Source of the DNA: Geobacter sp. FeAm09 | GTDB lineage: Bacteria > Desulfobacterota > Desulfuromonadia > Geobacterales > Pseudopelobacteraceae | Direction: 5' to 3' | Length of the DNA: 64,000 nucleotides | Assembly: GCF_008330225.1 (NCBI RefSeq) | Contig: NZ_CP042466.1 | Span: 3,714,001 to 3,778,000 of the forward strand | Shown: positions 3,080 through 60,151 of the stretch, piece after piece | How the letters are laid out: each line of letters starts with the position of its first letter | Numbering within the stretch: position 1 is the first letter of the stretch | Program-made: the position numbers and the translations under genes | Notes under the pieces: model-generated | Database searches by the model: none | What the model was told of the DNA's origin: nothing | Seen by the model: the letters and a program-made list of their open reading frames with translations, nothing else

Positions 3080-4699
3080 TCAGGAGACCTTGAACAGGCC
3101 GACCAGCGCGCCAAGTTCATCGGACAGACGCGTCAGCTGATCCGCGGCCTGGGAGGTGGTGTGCGTCTCCCGGGCCGTTTCCCGGATGATGTCCGTGATC
3201 TTGTGCATATTGTTGCTGATCTCGCGGCTCGTGGAACTCTGCTCTTCGGCCGCCGTGGCGATCTGGTTGACCTGGCCGGTCACCTCGTTGATCTGGTTGA
3301 GGATATCCTCAAGCGCCCGGCCGGAGCGGGAGGCTTCCCCGGTGCCCCGCTCCACCTCGCCCACCCCTTCCTCCATGGAGTTGACCGCCTGGCGCGTCTC
3401 TCCCTGGATCGCCTTGATCATTTCGCCGATCTCGCGCGTGGCCCGGGTGGTCCGCTCGGCCAGGGCCCTGACCTCATCGGCGACCACGGCGAATCCCCTC
3501 CCCTGTTCGCCGGCTCGCGCCGCCTCGATGGCCGCGTTCAGGGCCAGCAGGTTGGTCTGGTCGGCGATGTCCTCGATGGTCCCGACAATAGTGCCGATCT
3601 GGTCGGAGCGGGAGCCGAGGCTCTCCACCGTGTGCGCCGTGGCGCGGACCTGTTCGGAGATGCGGGCCATGCCGTCCACCGTGCCCTGGACAATGGCGGC
3701 GCCGGACGTGGCCAGTTCGTTGGCGCGCCGGGAGCTCTGCGCGGCGGCGCTGCAATTCGCGGCGATGTCCAGCGAGGTTGCCGCCATCTCTTCGCCCGCA
3801 GCCGCTACCGTGGTTGCCTGGGAGGCGACTTCATCCGTGCCCGCGACCATGGTGTGCGATGTGGCGCGCAGTTCCCTGGCGGCATTCGTGACCAGGACCG
3901 CCGTAGCCGAAACCCGCCTGATGGCATCGCGCATGCGGGCGGTCATGTTTTCCATGGAGCGCATGAGGTGGGACGTCTCGGAGCCCCCTTCGTCCACCCG
4001 GATGGTCACCGTCAGGTCACCCTCGGCGATGCGGTCGGCCACGCCGACGCACTGCTGCAGGGGCGCGATGATGCCGCGGGTGATGAAGAACGCCGTGACG
4101 ATGCTGAACACCAGAGCGATGATGCCGAAAGTAGCGATGGCTTTGATGGCGATCTCCGAGCTGGCGGCGGCCTCGGCGGTGAGCCGTTCGCTGCTTTGTT
4201 CGTAATAGGCCCGCACCGCTTCAAGGGCGCTGTCCACGTTATCGTCAACCGACTTCGCCTCGCCATTCATGATGGCGAGGAAGCCGGCCTTGTCGTCGGC
4301 GAGGGCCGCCGCGGCCAGTTTGTTGTTGACCGCCTTGCCGGCAAGGGCCGCCTTGAGATCGCCAAGCTTCTTCTTCCCCTCGGGCGTGGTGGTGTGCTTC
4401 ATGAGATAGCCGAATTTTTCCCCGTATTTCTGCCGCTGTATCTTCATCTTGTCGATAGAGCGCCGCTTCTCGGCCGGATCGTCGGCCAGGCCGGCAACCT
4501 TTATCGCTTCCTCGATCTCCATGCCGTCGATCTGGAGCTTGTAGGCGGTGTCACGGAGCCCGGAGACGCGCTTGATCTCGGCGAACTCCTTCTGTCCTTT
4601 CAGGATGCTGCCGATGCCGATGGTCGTGCAGGCGATGAGCAGCACGGACACGACGGCAAAGCCTACCATCAGGCGGGTACCGATTCTGAACTTTTTCAT
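3080..4699 (-). CDS. Methyl-accepting chemotaxis protein
   Basis: 539 residues. A short cytoplasmic start is followed by TM1 (about 11-31), a roughly 155-residue helical periplasmic sensor of the four-helix-bundle type, TM2 (about 187-208), a HAMP linker, and a cytoplasmic signalling coiled coil with the near-invariant hairpin tip ([20 protein letters not shown]). It would signal through CheA/CheW. The ATG at 4699 has an AAGGGAAG ribosome-binding site 6-8 bases upstream and gives the expected MKKF start. It lies 123 bp downstream of the porin, but an intrinsic terminator between them suggests separate or attenuated expression. It could report the same substrate the porin admits; that link is only positional. 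Confidence 0.93.
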
Positions 4700-22143: not shown

Positions 22144-22410
22144 GTTCGTGCTCCTTTTACTGCAATAGTATCACAGGGCAACAACGCTGCAACCCGTCGC
22201 ACCCCTGTCAGGCGGATGCAGAATACATCATCTGGGACGCCAGGGCAAGAATTCCCGTCCGCCCCCCGCGCCGGCCCGTTTTTCGCCCGGCGGTCGGCTC
22301 TCCCCTTGCCCTGAAGCGAAAATGACACGGAATGTGCAAATTTATTCTTGACTTTAACGGTTTATTTTCATACCGTGTAAACATTGCTGATTAAAACAGC
22401 AGCAATCAAG
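22144..22410. other. Divergent promoter region of ssb and the riboswitch transcript
   Basis: 267 bp with no gene. It is AT-rich only in the last 80 bp, where the putative sigma-70 promoter lies. The remainder shows no structure that I can name. Confidence 0.5.
22348..22376 (+). promoter_or_regulatory. Putative sigma-70 promoter of the riboswitch transcript
   Basis: TTGACT at 22348-22353, a 17-base spacer, then TACCGT at 22371-22376. The -35 box is good and the -10 box weak. Start of transcription would be near 22383, just before the first aptamer, which fits. Confidence 0.45.
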
Positions 22411-22494
22411 ATAGACGACAATACTAAACCATCCGCGAGGGTGGGGCGGAAAGCCTACAGGGTCTCATCGAGACAGCCGGGTCGCCGAAATATC
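22411..22494 (+). promoter_or_regulatory. GEMM-I cyclic-dinucleotide riboswitch aptamer 1
   Basis: The core reads ACTAAACCATCCG, GAGGGTGGGGCGGAAAGCCT, then GGGTCTCATCGAGACAGCC and GGGTCGCCGAAATATC, the conserved GEMM-I plan (AAACC, tetraloop, receptor, second hairpin, closing stem). Aligned to Vibrio Vc2, the base in the place of G20 is A, as in the Geobacter GEMM-Ib type that prefers cGAMP (3',3'). The closing strand also pairs in the terminator downstream. Confidence 0.9.
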
Positions 22495-22522
22495 GTACCA
22501 GATATTCGGTCCCGGCTTTTTT
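22476..22522 (+). terminator. Riboswitch 1 terminator (expression platform)
   Basis: GCCGGG and CCGAAATATC at the end of aptamer 1 pair with GATATTCGG and CCCGGC downstream, followed by six T. The 5' arm is shared with the closing strand of the aptamer, so ligand binding and termination exclude each other. Confidence 0.85.
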
Positions 22523-22635
22523 CGTACCCGGAACCGACAACGGGGAGGTGAAGAGAACAGCAGCGTTGCAGCGCCTCGAAGGCGGACACCCGCACCGGCC
22601 GGAACCTCGTACTCAACCGGTGCGCAGTACCCGTG

Positions 22636-22719
22636 GTACACGATAATACTAAACCATCCGCGAGGGTGGGACGGAAAGCCTACAGGGTCTCATGGAGACA
22701 GCCGGGTCGCCGAAATATC
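22636..22719 (+). promoter_or_regulatory. GEMM-I cyclic-dinucleotide riboswitch aptamer 2
   Basis: A second copy, nearly identical to aptamer 1 in the core (TAATACTAAACCATCCGCGA, GGGTGGGACGGAAAGCCT, GGGTCTCATGGAGACAGCC). It carries the same A at the G20 position. It lies in the same transcript, about 140 nt after the first. Confidence 0.9.
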
Positions 22720-22746
22720 ACTTCGATATTGGGCCCCGGTTTTTTT
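22701..22746 (+). terminator. Riboswitch 2 terminator (expression platform)
   Basis: The 5' arm GCCGGG...GAAATATC pairs with GATATTGGGCCCCGG after an ACTTC loop, followed by seven T. As in copy 1 the arm overlaps the aptamer closing strand. The lipoprotein gene starts about 150 bp further on. Confidence 0.85.
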
Positions 22747-22894
22747 GTGCCCGGTATCCAGGCAAAACCAACTCAAAAACGAAACAAAATGCTGCCCATC
22801 CTCCACCAACCGCAGCAGGAAGCAAGGAGAAGGAATGAAGACACGGATAGACATGGCAGGTAACGCACCACACGGTTCAAGGAAAGGAGCATTA

Positions 22895-25246
22895 ATGACA
22901 AATCTGATACAAAGGACTCTGGCGGCAATCACGGTATTCTCTCTGGCAACGGCGGGTCTTATTGCCGGCTGCGGCGGCGGTGGAGGGGGGCTTTCCTCCC
23001 AGGTCGTAAGCGGCACGGCCGCCGTCGGGGCGCCCTTGTCCGGCCAGGTAAGCCTCAAGGATTCCTCCGCCACGCCACAGACGAGGACAACCGTCATCGG
23101 CAGCGACGGCTCGTTTGCCATCGACGTGACGGGCATGCAGGCGCCCTTCATCCTCGAGGCGACGGGCAGCGCCGCCGGCACCAGCTACAAACTCCACTCC
23201 TTCGCCGAAAGCACCGGCACCGCCAACATCAACCCGCTTTCCGACGCCATCGTAGCCAGCGCCGCCGGCGATACCGACGCGTCCAAGTCCTACGACAGCG
23301 CCGATCACGACAAACTGGGCAAGATCAAGGGGAACCTGGCGGCGACCGTGGACGCCCTGCTGAAAAAACTGCAGCCCCTGCTCCAGCAGTATAACGCCCA
23401 GAACACCAACCCGATCACCTCGCGCTACATCGCCAACCACCTCGACCTCGACGATATGTTCGACAACGTGAAAATCACCGTCGCCAATGGGGTCCTGTCG
23501 ATCGTCAACGCCAAAACCGGCGCCGTCATCTACAGCGGCAAGGTGACCGACATCGCCAACGGCAACTTCTACCCCGACAACGTCCCCTCGACCCCGGCGG
23601 CTCCCGTAGCTCCGACAGGGGTAGCCGCAGTGGGCGGCGCCGGCCAGGCGACCATTTCCTGGACCGCCGTCAGCAATGCGACCTCCTATAACATCTATTA
23701 CGCCACCACCTCCGGCGTCACCACCGCCACCGGCACCAAGATCGCCAATGCCACCACCCCGTACGTCCAGACCGGTCTCTCCGCCAGCACCACCTACTAC
23801 TATGTGGTGACCGCCGTCAACAGCACCGGCGAAAGCGTCGCCTCGGCCCAGGCATCGGCCACCACCAACGCCGCCGTGCCGACCCCGACCGCCCCGGCGG
23901 CACCGACCGGCGTGACCGCCACCGGCGGCACCAAACAGGTGACCATCTCCTGGCCGGCGGTTACCGGCGCCACCTCCTATAACATCTACTACGCCACCAC
24001 CAGCGGGGTTTCCAAAACGAACGGCACCAAGATCACCGGCGCCACCAGCCCCGCCGTCCAGACCGGGCTCGCCGACGCCACCACCTACTACTACGTGGTG
24101 ACCGCCGTCAACAGCACCGGCGAGAGCGCCGCCTCCGTACAGGTTGCCGCGACGACCCTGGCTGCCGTCCCGGCCCCGACCGCCCCGGCGGCACCGACCG
24201 GCGTGACCGCCACCGGCGGCGCCAAACAGGCGACCATCTCCTGGTCCGCGGTTTCCGGCGCCACCTCCTATAACATCTACTACGCCACCACCAGCGGAGT
24301 CTCCAAAACGAACGGCACCAAGATCGCCGGCGCCACCAGCCCCTATGTCCAGACCGCCCTGTCCGCCGGCACCACCTATTACTACATCGTCACCGCCGTC
24401 AACAGCGTCGGCGAGAGCACCGCTTCGGCCCAGGCATCGGCCACCACCAATGCGGCGCCCCCGGCCGTTCCAACCGCGCCGACCGGCGTGACCGCCACCG
24501 GCGGCACCAACCAGATGACCGTCTCCTGGTCCGCGGTTTCCGGCGCCACCTCCTATAACATCTACTGGTCAACCGCCACGGGCGTCACCATCGCCTCCGG
24601 CACCAAAATCGCCGGCGCCACCAGCCCCTATGTCCAGACCGGGCTCGCCGCCGGAACCGCCTACTACTACATCGTCACCGCGGTGAACAGCTCCGGCGAA
24701 AGCCCCGCTTCGGCTCAGGCATCGGCAAGCACCAGCGCACCGGCCCCGGTCGTCCCGGCCGCGCCGACCGGCGTGGGCGCCACCGGCGGGACCAACCAGG
24801 TGACCGTCTCCTGGTCGGCGGTCAGCGGCGCAACCTCGTACAACATCTACTACGCCACCACCAGCGGGGTCTCCAAAACGAGCGGCACCAAGATCACCGG
24901 CGCCACCAGCCCCTATGTCCAGACCGGACTTACCGCCGGCACCACCTACTACTACATTGTCACCGCAGTGAACAGCGCCGGCGAAAGCGCCGCTTCGGCC
25001 CAGGCATCGGCGGCCACCACGGCGGCGGCGACCTGTGGGAGCTGCCACGCAATACCTCCTGCAACCGGCCAGCATTCGTTCCATATCGGCCTGGGCTACA
25101 CCTGTCTTACCTGCCACGGGACCGGCTACAGCAGCACCACGGTGAACGCGGCGACTCACGCAAACGGCACCGTCAATGTCGTCACGTCCCTCAATTGGAA
25201 CGGGACGTCCTGCTCTCCCGCCTGCCACGGGACCAGGAACTGGTAG
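22895..25246 (+). CDS. FN3-repeat outer-surface lipoprotein with C-terminal c-type haem motifs
   Basis: 783 residues. The start at 22895 has AAAGGAG upstream and gives a lipoprotein signal (lipobox LIAGC near residue 29) followed by a glycine run. Residues ~30-230 are an unrecognised domain. Residues ~237-710 are five fibronectin type III repeats of about 90 residues, each with a GxTxxSWxAV...TSYNIYY core and a YYYxVTAVNSxGES end. The tail has haem-binding motifs CGSCH (714), CLTCH (737) and an unusual C-x3-CH (773). It is transcribed behind two cyclic-dinucleotide riboswitches. Geobacter cGAMP riboswitches are known to control extracellular electron-transfer cytochromes; this protein may bind a surface or mineral and carry electrons. 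Confidence 0.85.
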   Translation: MTNLIQRTLAAITVFSLATAGLIAGCGGGGGGLSSQVVSGTAAVGAPLSGQVSLKDSSATPQTRTTVIGSDGSFAIDVTGMQAPFILEATGSAAGTSYKLHSFAESTGTANINPLSDAIVASAAGDTDASKSYDSADHDKLGKIKGNLAATVDALLKKLQPLLQQYNAQNTNPITSRYIANHLDLDDMFDNVKITVANGVLSIVNAKTGAVIYSGKVTDIANGNFYPDNVPSTPAAPVAPTGVAAVGGAGQATISWTAVSNATSYNIYYATTSGVTTATGTKIANATTPYVQTGLSASTTYYYVVTAVNSTGESVASAQASATTNAAVPTPTAPAAPTGVTATGGTKQVTISWPAVTGATSYNIYYATTSGVSKTNGTKITGATSPAVQTGLADATTYYYVVTAVNSTGESAASVQVAATTLAAVPAPTAPAAPTGVTATGGAKQATISWSAVSGATSYNIYYATTSGVSKTNGTKIAGATSPYVQTALSAGTTYYYIVTAVNSVGESTASAQASATTNAAPPAVPTAPTGVTATGGTNQMTVSWSAVSGATSYNIYWSTATGVTIASGTKIAGATSPYVQTGLAAGTAYYYIVTAVNSSGESPASAQASASTSAPAPVVPAAPTGVGATGGTNQVTVSWSAVSGATSYNIYYATTSGVSKTSGTKITGATSPYVQTGLTAGTTYYYIVTAVNSAGESAASAQASAATTAAATCGSCHAIPPATGQHSFHIGLGYTCLTCHGTGYSSTTVNAATHANGTVNVVTSLNWNGTSCSPACHGTRNW
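23600..25028 (+). repeat. Five tandem FN3-coding repeats
   Basis: Five units of roughly 285 bp coding for one FN3 domain each. Blocks such as GGCGCCACCTCCTATAACAT recur nearly unchanged at DNA level in several units, so the array has duplicated or been homogenised recently. Such an array could change in copy number by recombination. Confidence 0.85.
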
Positions 25247-58775: not shown

Positions 58776-58905
58776 TCTGCCACGGAGGCGCAGAGAAAAC
58801 CAGAGAGAGTATTAACTCAGGGCCCTTACCCAAAAATCCCTGTTTTAAGTTTCGGCTTTCTCAGTGTTTCTCCGTGTCTCAGTGTCTCTGTGGCAGATTT
58901 TGAGA
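58776..58905. repeat. Inverted-repeat-bounded intergenic element (copy B)
   Basis: Left end TCTGCCACGGAGGCGCAGAG, right end (58870-58896) TCCGTGTCTCAGTGTCTCTG then TGGCAGA, an imperfect inverted repeat. The right side matches the repeat at 54926-54975. It lies between the amidase-like gene and tyrS. Confidence 0.65.
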
Positions 58906-58939
58906 TTCCAGAATTTAATCTTTCCCAGGAGTTAGAAAT

Positions 58940-60151
58940 ATGTCCGTAGCAGAGCAGATGGCCGTCATCAAGCGCGGCGCCGTGGAGATTCTGGTCGAAA
59001 AGGAACTGGAAGACAAGTTGGAGAAGTCCCTCAAAAGCGGCGTGCCCCTGAAGATCAAGGCCGGCTTCGACCCCACCGCCCCGGACCTCCACCTGGGCCA
59101 TACCGTGCTGATCCAGAAACTGCGCCAGTTCCAGCAACTGGGGCATGAGGTCAACTTCCTCATCGGCGACTTCACCGGCATGATCGGCGACCCCACCGGC
59201 AAATCCGTGACCCGCAAGGTCCTGACCCGCGAGGACGTGCTCAGGAACGCCGAAACCTACAAGGAGCAGGTCTTCAAGATCCTCGACCCGGCCAAAACCA
59301 AGGTGGTCTTCAACTCCGAATGGCTCAACAAGCTGGACGCCGGCGGCATGATCGGCCTGGCCTCCAAGTATACCGTGGCCCGCATGCTGGAGCGGGACGA
59401 CTTCCACAAGCGCTTCACCAGCCAGCAGCCGATCAGCATCCACGAGTTTCTCTACCCCCTGATCCAGGGGTACGATTCGGTGGCGCTCCAGGCGGATGTG
59501 GAGTTGGGGGGCACCGACCAGAAGTTCAACCTGCTCATGGGGCGCGAACTTCAGCGGGAGTGGGGCCAGCCGTCCCAGTGCATCCTCACCATGCCGCTCC
59601 TGGAGGGACTGGACGGGGTCAACAAGATGTCCAAGTCCCTGGGCAACTACATCGGCATCAGCGAGCCCCCCGACGAGATCTTCGGCAAGGTCATGTCCAT
59701 CTCCGACGACCTGATGCTGCGCTACTACGAGCTGCTCTCCGACATGTCCCTGACCGAACTGGAACAACTGAAGGCCGGCCTGAAGGACCACTCCCTCCAC
59801 CCCATGGCGGCCAAGAAGGCGCTGGGGCGCGAGATCGTCTCCCGCTTCCACGGCGCCGGGGCCGGCGAGGCGGCGGAGGAGCAATTCGTCAAGCGCTTCA
59901 AGGAGAACGAGATCCCGGACGAGATGCCCCAGGTCGGCTTCTCCCTGGCCGACGGCCCGGTGCTCCTGGCCAGGGCCATGACCGAGGCCGGGCTGACCAA
60001 GTCCAACGGCGAGGGGCGGCGCTCCATCGACCAGGGGGGGGTCAGGCTGAACAACGAAAAGGTCAGCGATACCAACCTGGAACTGGCCGCCCCCGGCGAG
60101 TACATCGTCCAGATCGGCAAGCGCAGGTTTGCCCGGATCGTCGTTTCCTGA
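58940..60151 (+). CDS. tyrS: Tyrosine--tRNA ligase
   Basis: 403 residues. The class I signatures are HLGH near residue 52 and KMSKS near residue 231. [30 protein letters not shown], and the C-terminal S4-like RNA-binding part ([21 protein letters not shown]) fit TyrS of the TyrZ type. AGGAG lies 7 bases before the ATG. The enzyme attaches tyrosine to its tRNA. Confidence 0.97.

Follow-up and report, generated by a model that had tools for sequence, protein, structure and literature searches.

The window (the whole 64,000-nucleotide stretch of DNA that was analysed) contains a leader with two riboswitch aptamers in series, followed by the gene for a large lipoprotein (Table 1). In a cmscan search of the whole window two matches reached a gathering cut-off, and both are to RF01051 (c-di-GMP-I / GEMM-I), for which the Rfam gathering cut-off is 35 bits. 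The aptamers belong to a direct repeat of 96 nt whose two copies are 90% identical and 225 nt apart. The initial annotation had described two cyclic-dinucleotide riboswitches with a common core, each with its own terminator and with a closing strand that doubles as a terminator arm, and all of this is borne out. Each aptamer runs into a hairpin (22475-22517 and 22700-22740) and a U-tract (22517-22522 and 22740-22746), and the 3' strand of the aptamer itself supplies the first seven hairpin bases, AGCCGGG in both copies. The leader therefore has the make-up of a tandem riboswitch: its two aptamers are complete, belong to one class and have an expression platform apiece. One composite aptamer with a single platform was considered and rejected, as the hairpin and U-tract are present twice, once per copy.

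Table 1. Features of the leader and of the gene that follows it (positions in the window).
Feature	Position	Strand	Evidence
Probable promoter, TTGACT-17 nt-TACCGT	22348..22376	+	read by eye; conserved in three-species alignment
Aptamer 1, GEMM-I fold, A at Vc2-20 position	22413..22489	+	RF01051, 39.9 bits, E 2.5e-4
Terminator 1, hairpin (5' arm is the 3' strand of aptamer 1) and TTTTTT	22475..22522	+	fold; arm-swap test
Linker between the riboswitches	22523..22637	+	linker alignment; by eye
Aptamer 2, GEMM-I fold, A at Vc2-20 position	22638..22714	+	RF01051, 44.0 bits, E 2.6e-5
Terminator 2, hairpin (uses the 3' strand of aptamer 2) and TTTTTTT	22700..22746	+	fold
Controlled gene, lipoprotein of 783 aa: N-domain, five FN3, C-terminal haem motifs	22895..25246	+	ORF, PF00041, lipobox
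Haem-binding tail, CGSCH (25034), CLTCH (25103), CSPACH (25211)	25034..25228	+	sequence

The strand that is common to aptamer and terminator makes the two folds exclusive, which is the arrangement of an antitermination ON switch; the direction in vivo is something that we infer. Single-sequence folds calculated free of ligand prefer the terminator over the basal helix of the aptamer, as expected of an ON switch. Some aptamer pairs are missing from these folds, and when copy 2 is folded with its terminator, part of the aptamer is mispaired. A simple pattern scan of 22150-22900 reported neither a terminator nor a promoter (sigma-70 pattern). In two sister species the promoter again has TTGACT and a spacing of 17 nt, with TATTCT or TATCCT as the -10 element where the window has TACCGT. 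The linker holds a Shine-Dalgarno-like element, GGGGAGGTGA, at 22542-22551, and a hairpin, seen by eye, in which CGCACCGG (22591-22598) pairs with CCGGTGCG (22617-22624); in the three-species alignment both of its arms differ together in the sister species.

The protein encoded downstream is, as had been claimed from the sequence, a lipoprotein that combines five FN3 domains with a haem-binding tail: there are five stretches of PF00041, a lipobox IAGC, and the three motifs listed in Table 1. A further in-frame ATG lies upstream of the chosen start, at 22835. The tail gives a weak match to Cytochrome_C7 (21.1 bits, under the cut-off of 24.8), and NCBIfam gave a single match to the protein, far below cut-off, of an exoglucanase model to the FN3 part. 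Among 24 homologous proteins including that of the window, three haem motifs are found in 10 (the window's among them), one in 11, and none in 3, two of these last being cut by the contig (L100 and L104) and the other (L103) ending within the FN3 region. The one-motif proteins include those of the genomes G001, G002 and G003, where the motif is CLGCH. The number of FN3 domains also varies, being three in G001 and five in G002 and the window. The FN3-stalked haem lipoprotein is probably a surface electron carrier. The haem head differs among close relatives, with three motifs in the window (25028-25243) and a single CLGCH in the tails at L045, L047 and L097.

The leader is conserved within the genus. 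Both G001 and G002, which belong to the same genus as the window, have both aptamers and both terminators at a spacing of 224 nt, with the same lipoprotein downstream and then a gpmI-like gene (named by eye); an ORF antisense to the upstream ssb-like gene (also by eye) is present in both as well. G003 has a single aptamer (L149, G003:C142), as does L097 (PLYK01000043.1, Geobacter sp. palsa_1151; aptamer at 3736-3812), and L097 and L149 are probably one record. The aptamer of L149 is 0.961-0.987 identical to slot 1 of the sisters and 0.909-0.935 identical to slot 2, and the terminator loop of L097/L149 resembles slot 2. This hybrid-looking copy suggests that here the tandem pair has probably been collapsed by recombination.

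More distant homologues show how far the pair extends. A search of named GTDB contigs with the N-domain of the lipoprotein found 15 loci, with two aptamers upstream at 10, one at 1 (L097) and none at 4; the last (L107-L110) are 46-52% identical, three being labelled Burkholderiales, Burkholderiaceae or beta, and one Proteobacteria. In an overlapping survey, 38 of 76 family genomes have a homologue (62 matches in total), and 30 loci were scanned, one per genome and 34-100% identical, leaving 8 homologue-bearing genomes outside the scan. Close upstream there are two aptamers over cut-off at 20 of the 30 loci, one at 7 (L149, L161, L164, L165, L166, L167 and L169) and none at 3. The seven single-copy loci are counted at the cut-off, so that second aptamers below it fall outside the count, and L165 has another aptamer 942 nt further. 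The second copy is thus not essential.

In 19 tandem leaders of the lipoprotein, the mean identity is 0.908 within slot 1 and 0.926 within slot 2, against 0.88 across the slots of different leaders and 0.884 between the slots of one leader. Each slot therefore resembles the same slot in other leaders, which implies that the pair is old and that its slots evolve as separate units. Since many of the 19 leaders were selected as tandem, the comparison bears on age and not on frequency. Slot identity kept across species rules out a recent duplication and, as judged from these alignments, the pair is well conserved rather than freshly duplicated.

Covariation was analysed in an alignment of 95 copies, made up of the two copies of the window and 93 others, drawn from the family's tandem loci, that read ACT at positions 20-22. 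Copies with other bases at 20-22, one of odd length and those cut by contig ends were omitted, and L049, L050 and L054 are also absent, not being on the list used, although the second copy of L050 has A20. The aptamer helices have standard pairs in 96.1% of cells, a figure that falls to 52% or less when the partner is slid by one to three columns. Five pairs are changed on both sides, against a shuffle mean of 3.1 (13 of 500 shuffles as high). For cells the figure is 39, against a shuffle mean of 9.5 and with none of 500 shuffles as high, and sliding yields no more than 24. The number of additional pair types in the aptamer does not exceed the shuffles (386 of 500 as high). The helices of RF01051 are thus backed by compensatory changes and, together with the scores over cut-off, this excludes a chance match: a leader conserved in two sister species with such changes is more than chance.

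The terminator helix behaves differently. It is paired in 84.6% of cells, against 52.1% or less when slid, but no pair is altered on both sides and the counts do not rise above the shuffles (500 of 500 as high), since the aptamer holds the 5' arm fixed. Of the upper pairs, two lack pairing, one in 36 of 94 cells and the other in 47 of 91. In addition to this null result, an arm-swap test was run on 93 unique copies with 200 swaps. Their own hairpins average -22.32 kcal/mol, compared with -21.05 (sd 0.16) when the 3' arms are exchanged, and none of the 200 swaps was as low; since swapped arms weaken the hairpins, each terminator is matched to the aptamer to which it belongs. Weak hairpins of -7.3 to -12.5 kcal/mol are seen in four second-slot copies (L059, L087, L090 and L094). 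These four and L078 have no T run in the alignment, and may use another platform.

Aligned to RF01051, both aptamers have A at model position 11, which by our own column count against the Vc2 sequence we take to be Vc2 G20, in agreement with the initial annotation. An A at this position marks the cGAMP type, GEMM-Ib (PMC6456294, PMC9481103), and 3',3'-cGAMP is the most likely ligand of both aptamers. RF01051 gives 18 hits in the window's genome, with base 20, read by eye, being A in nine and G in nine. The genome also has 30 matches to GGDEF. With both strands read, the motif is visible at 22 of the 30 loci, and two of these motifs belong to neighbours (L132 shows that of L127, and L141 that of L138), which leaves 20 distinct motifs; no motif was readable at the other 8 loci, which are unclassed. 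The diagnostic position is Asp in 18 of the 20 and Ser in two (L124 and L140). Ser in place of Asp in a GGDEF domain is characteristic of a Hypr enzyme, that is, a cGAMP synthase. L124 has REC and GGDEF domains with the motif FKSVNDTYGHLVGS, and its best PDB match is 6d9m at 236 bits, the next being at 153 bits. In the 6d9m entry a protein of the diguanylate cyclase type is fused to endolysin, and we take this protein to be the GacA domain of Geobacter metallireducens; a T4 lysozyme-Gmet GGDEF construct is mentioned in the eLife paper (PMC6456294). L124 is accordingly a predicted GacA-like Hypr GGDEF of this host. The motif of L140 is GGDDF, the same as that reported for the second cGAMP synthase of G. 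sulfurreducens (PMC8835794). With the GacA-like L124 and the GGDDF protein L140, the host probably makes cGAMP. Because of its 30 GGDEF matches, it very likely makes c-di-GMP as well.

We therefore consider it highly probable that the leader is a tandem (pseudo-cooperative) pair of GEMM-Ib riboswitches, acting as cGAMP-sensing ON switches in front of the FN3 haem lipoprotein gene. Transcription would start near 22383 and produce aptamer 1. In the absence of ligand, the 3' strand of aptamer 1 would enter the terminator hairpin and transcription would stop at about 22520; with ligand bound, the aptamer would keep this strand, no hairpin would form, and polymerase would proceed to aptamer 2. The same choice would be repeated at about 22745, and only transcripts that pass both terminators would reach the lipoprotein gene. 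Such ligand control and read-through are suggested by what is known of the family and by published tandem examples.

An idealised dose model, in which two identical ON switches act independently one after the other and read-through is the product of the two curves, indicates what the doubling could achieve. In this model EC90/EC10 goes from 81 to 40 (effective Hill coefficient 1.19), EC50 rises 2.4-fold, and the dynamic range goes from 10 to 100. The sharper response that the initial annotation expected of two terminators is thus present to a modest degree, and the larger effect in the model is a lower leak, which would make tightness, not sharpness, the main gain.

One alternative keeps the tandem ON switch and differs as to the ligand, which would be c-di-GMP, or both dinucleotides, and not mainly cGAMP. 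The A variant does not strictly keep out c-di-GMP: a Desulfobacca aptamer carrying it gained cGAMP binding, with binding of c-di-GMP perhaps slightly weakened (PMC9481103), and the riboswitch before OmcST in Geobacter, whose base 20 was not seen in the text at hand, is reported to respond to both (PMC6456294). The c-di-GMP that the host very likely makes would suit this reading too. However, A20 is present in both copies of the window, the change A20G switched the selectivity of a Geobacter GEMM-Ib riboswitch from cGAMP to c-di-GMP (PMC6456294), and the genome keeps equal numbers of A20 and G20 aptamers along with a GacA-like protein. We regard this alternative as unlikely. A mixture of ligands within the window's own leader is not indicated, both copies being A20.

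Two other alternatives concern the doubling itself. Were only one copy to regulate, the other would be a leftover of duplication. This would fit the variation in copy number and the single-copy leaders at the same locus, such as L097/L149, and yet both slots are kept with their own terminators in three species of the genus, and the higher identities within slots than across them argue for an old pair in which both slots are constrained; we think it quite improbable that one copy is idle. That the second copy is a duplicate made in assembly, a thought prompted by the 90% identity of the repeats, is hardly credible: the flanks, linker and terminators differ between the copies, other assemblies show the same arrangement with a spacing of 224-225 nt, and these conserved differences had already refuted it.

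The arrangement itself is already known from Geobacter. G. sulfurreducens has 17 GEMM-I riboswitches, in several cases two in tandem, and its tandem GEMM-Ib leaders have been described with RNA-seq (PMC6456294; eLife 2019). Among bacterial GEMM-I riboswitches 347 doublets and 12 triplets have been counted, and switches in series are called pseudo-cooperative (PMC9481103; RNA Biol 2022). A close likeness is to GSU2885 (OmcAHG) of G. sulfurreducens, where two serial GEMM-Ib riboswitches precede outer membrane cytochrome genes and where, without gacA, RNA was undetected by the second copy (PMC6456294); the comparison is one of text and not of sequence, and the gene in the window differs in encoding an FN3-stalked haem lipoprotein. 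The doublets and triplets are likewise complete riboswitches of the same class in series, but they were counted as c-di-GMP-I (PMC9481103), whereas both members of the window's pair are of the A20 type. The triplet Bc3-5 of Bacillus thuringiensis is described as more stringent and digital than a double or single riboswitch (PMC4759541). GEMM riboswitches are also found before genes for FN3 proteins, namely Gbem_1796, 1798 and 1799 of G. bemidjiensis (PMC2996986) and KN400_1971 of Geobacter (PMC13194489), although the portions of these papers at hand mention neither a tandem pair nor a haem tail. Finally, the gene of an extracellular cytochrome, pgcA (GSU1761), is preceded by a GEMM-Ib riboswitch that is an ON switch of the cGAMP type and has a terminator, but this was used and shown as a single riboswitch, and PgcA is another protein (PMC6456294). 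A search of the open-licence literature by title or start of abstract found no paper on the present locus. With tandem GEMM-Ib leaders and GEMM-regulated FN3 genes both in print, the locus adds an example of a known arrangement, here a tandem riboswitch of the cGAMP type that is conserved and linked to a lipoprotein whose haem head varies among sister species. The related loci with two aptamers, one (hybrid-looking) or none, and with one slot changed from A20 to G20, are natural comparisons for the doubling, and make the tandem logic testable.

That last kind of change emerged from a wider survey. In 42 family genomes there are 445 matches to RF01051 at E 0.001 or better, three of the genomes having none, and 50 tandem clusters were picked by eye, with neighbouring starts no more than 320 nt apart, including that of the window and excluding three wider pairs (422, 523 and 619 nt). 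Of these clusters 42 are A20 only, two are G20 only, one has T then A, and five mix A20 and G20. One of the five (L063, G014:C220:59106-59180 and 58874-58950, minus strand) is a leader of a homologous lipoprotein, with G20 in slot 1, A in slot 2, and a further match of slot 1 to c-di-GMP-I-GGC (61.1 bits, cut-off 59); this locus (L063/L168, G014) belongs to another genus than the window. The other mixed leaders are L051:1496-1734, L057:428-776, L066:444-718 and L073:3268-3544 (-). Each opens with an A20 riboswitch that has a terminator to itself and continues with a canonical G20 aptamer, behind which there are, by eye, stretches complementary to the Shine-Dalgarno region; the platform of this second aptamer differs from that of the first and is perhaps translational. 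The ORFs behind these four leaders resemble secreted repeat proteins by eye. The protein at L066 is found in 2 of the 76 genomes, and its second homologue in each of these (L144, L145) has no GEMM-I match over cut-off in the flank scanned, so that this mixed pair is narrow.

It is possible that the mixed leaders are natural two-signal gates reading cGAMP and c-di-GMP, with the ligands predicted from one base. Table 2 of the RNA Biol 2022 paper, in the portion at hand, lists no gate of cGAMP with c-di-GMP (PMC9481103), and the two dinucleotides have opposed roles in Geobacter (PMC6456294). If the slots follow base 20, counting GEMM-I as a single class conceals such two-signal gates, and if both ligands are truly read, mixed pairs would connect two dinucleotide signals. 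Tentatively, the leader in the window may represent one state of a two-slot sensor that is open to evolutionary change, each slot being able to switch ligand separately, with the Shine-Dalgarno-like element of the linker maybe a third part. Such elements occur in 26 of 57 inter-aptamer linkers against 4.9 expected from a mononucleotide shuffle, many of the linkers being orthologues and so not independent; kept in many relatives, the element could be a third, undescribed part. Some of these motifs precede a frame of 4-6 codons, for example MGLLF or MTRF followed by a stop.

Three further tandem leaders may be mentioned. In the window's own genome, L053 (G000:C1:777450-777681) has A20 with A20 before ORFs that by eye are L,D-transpeptidase-like, and L054 (G000:C1:2391292-2391521) has G20 with G20, one copy of which matches c-di-GMP-I-UAU at 67.6 bits. 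L081 (G023:C10:17164-17530) is an A20 GEMM-I triplet with an even spacing of 145 nt.
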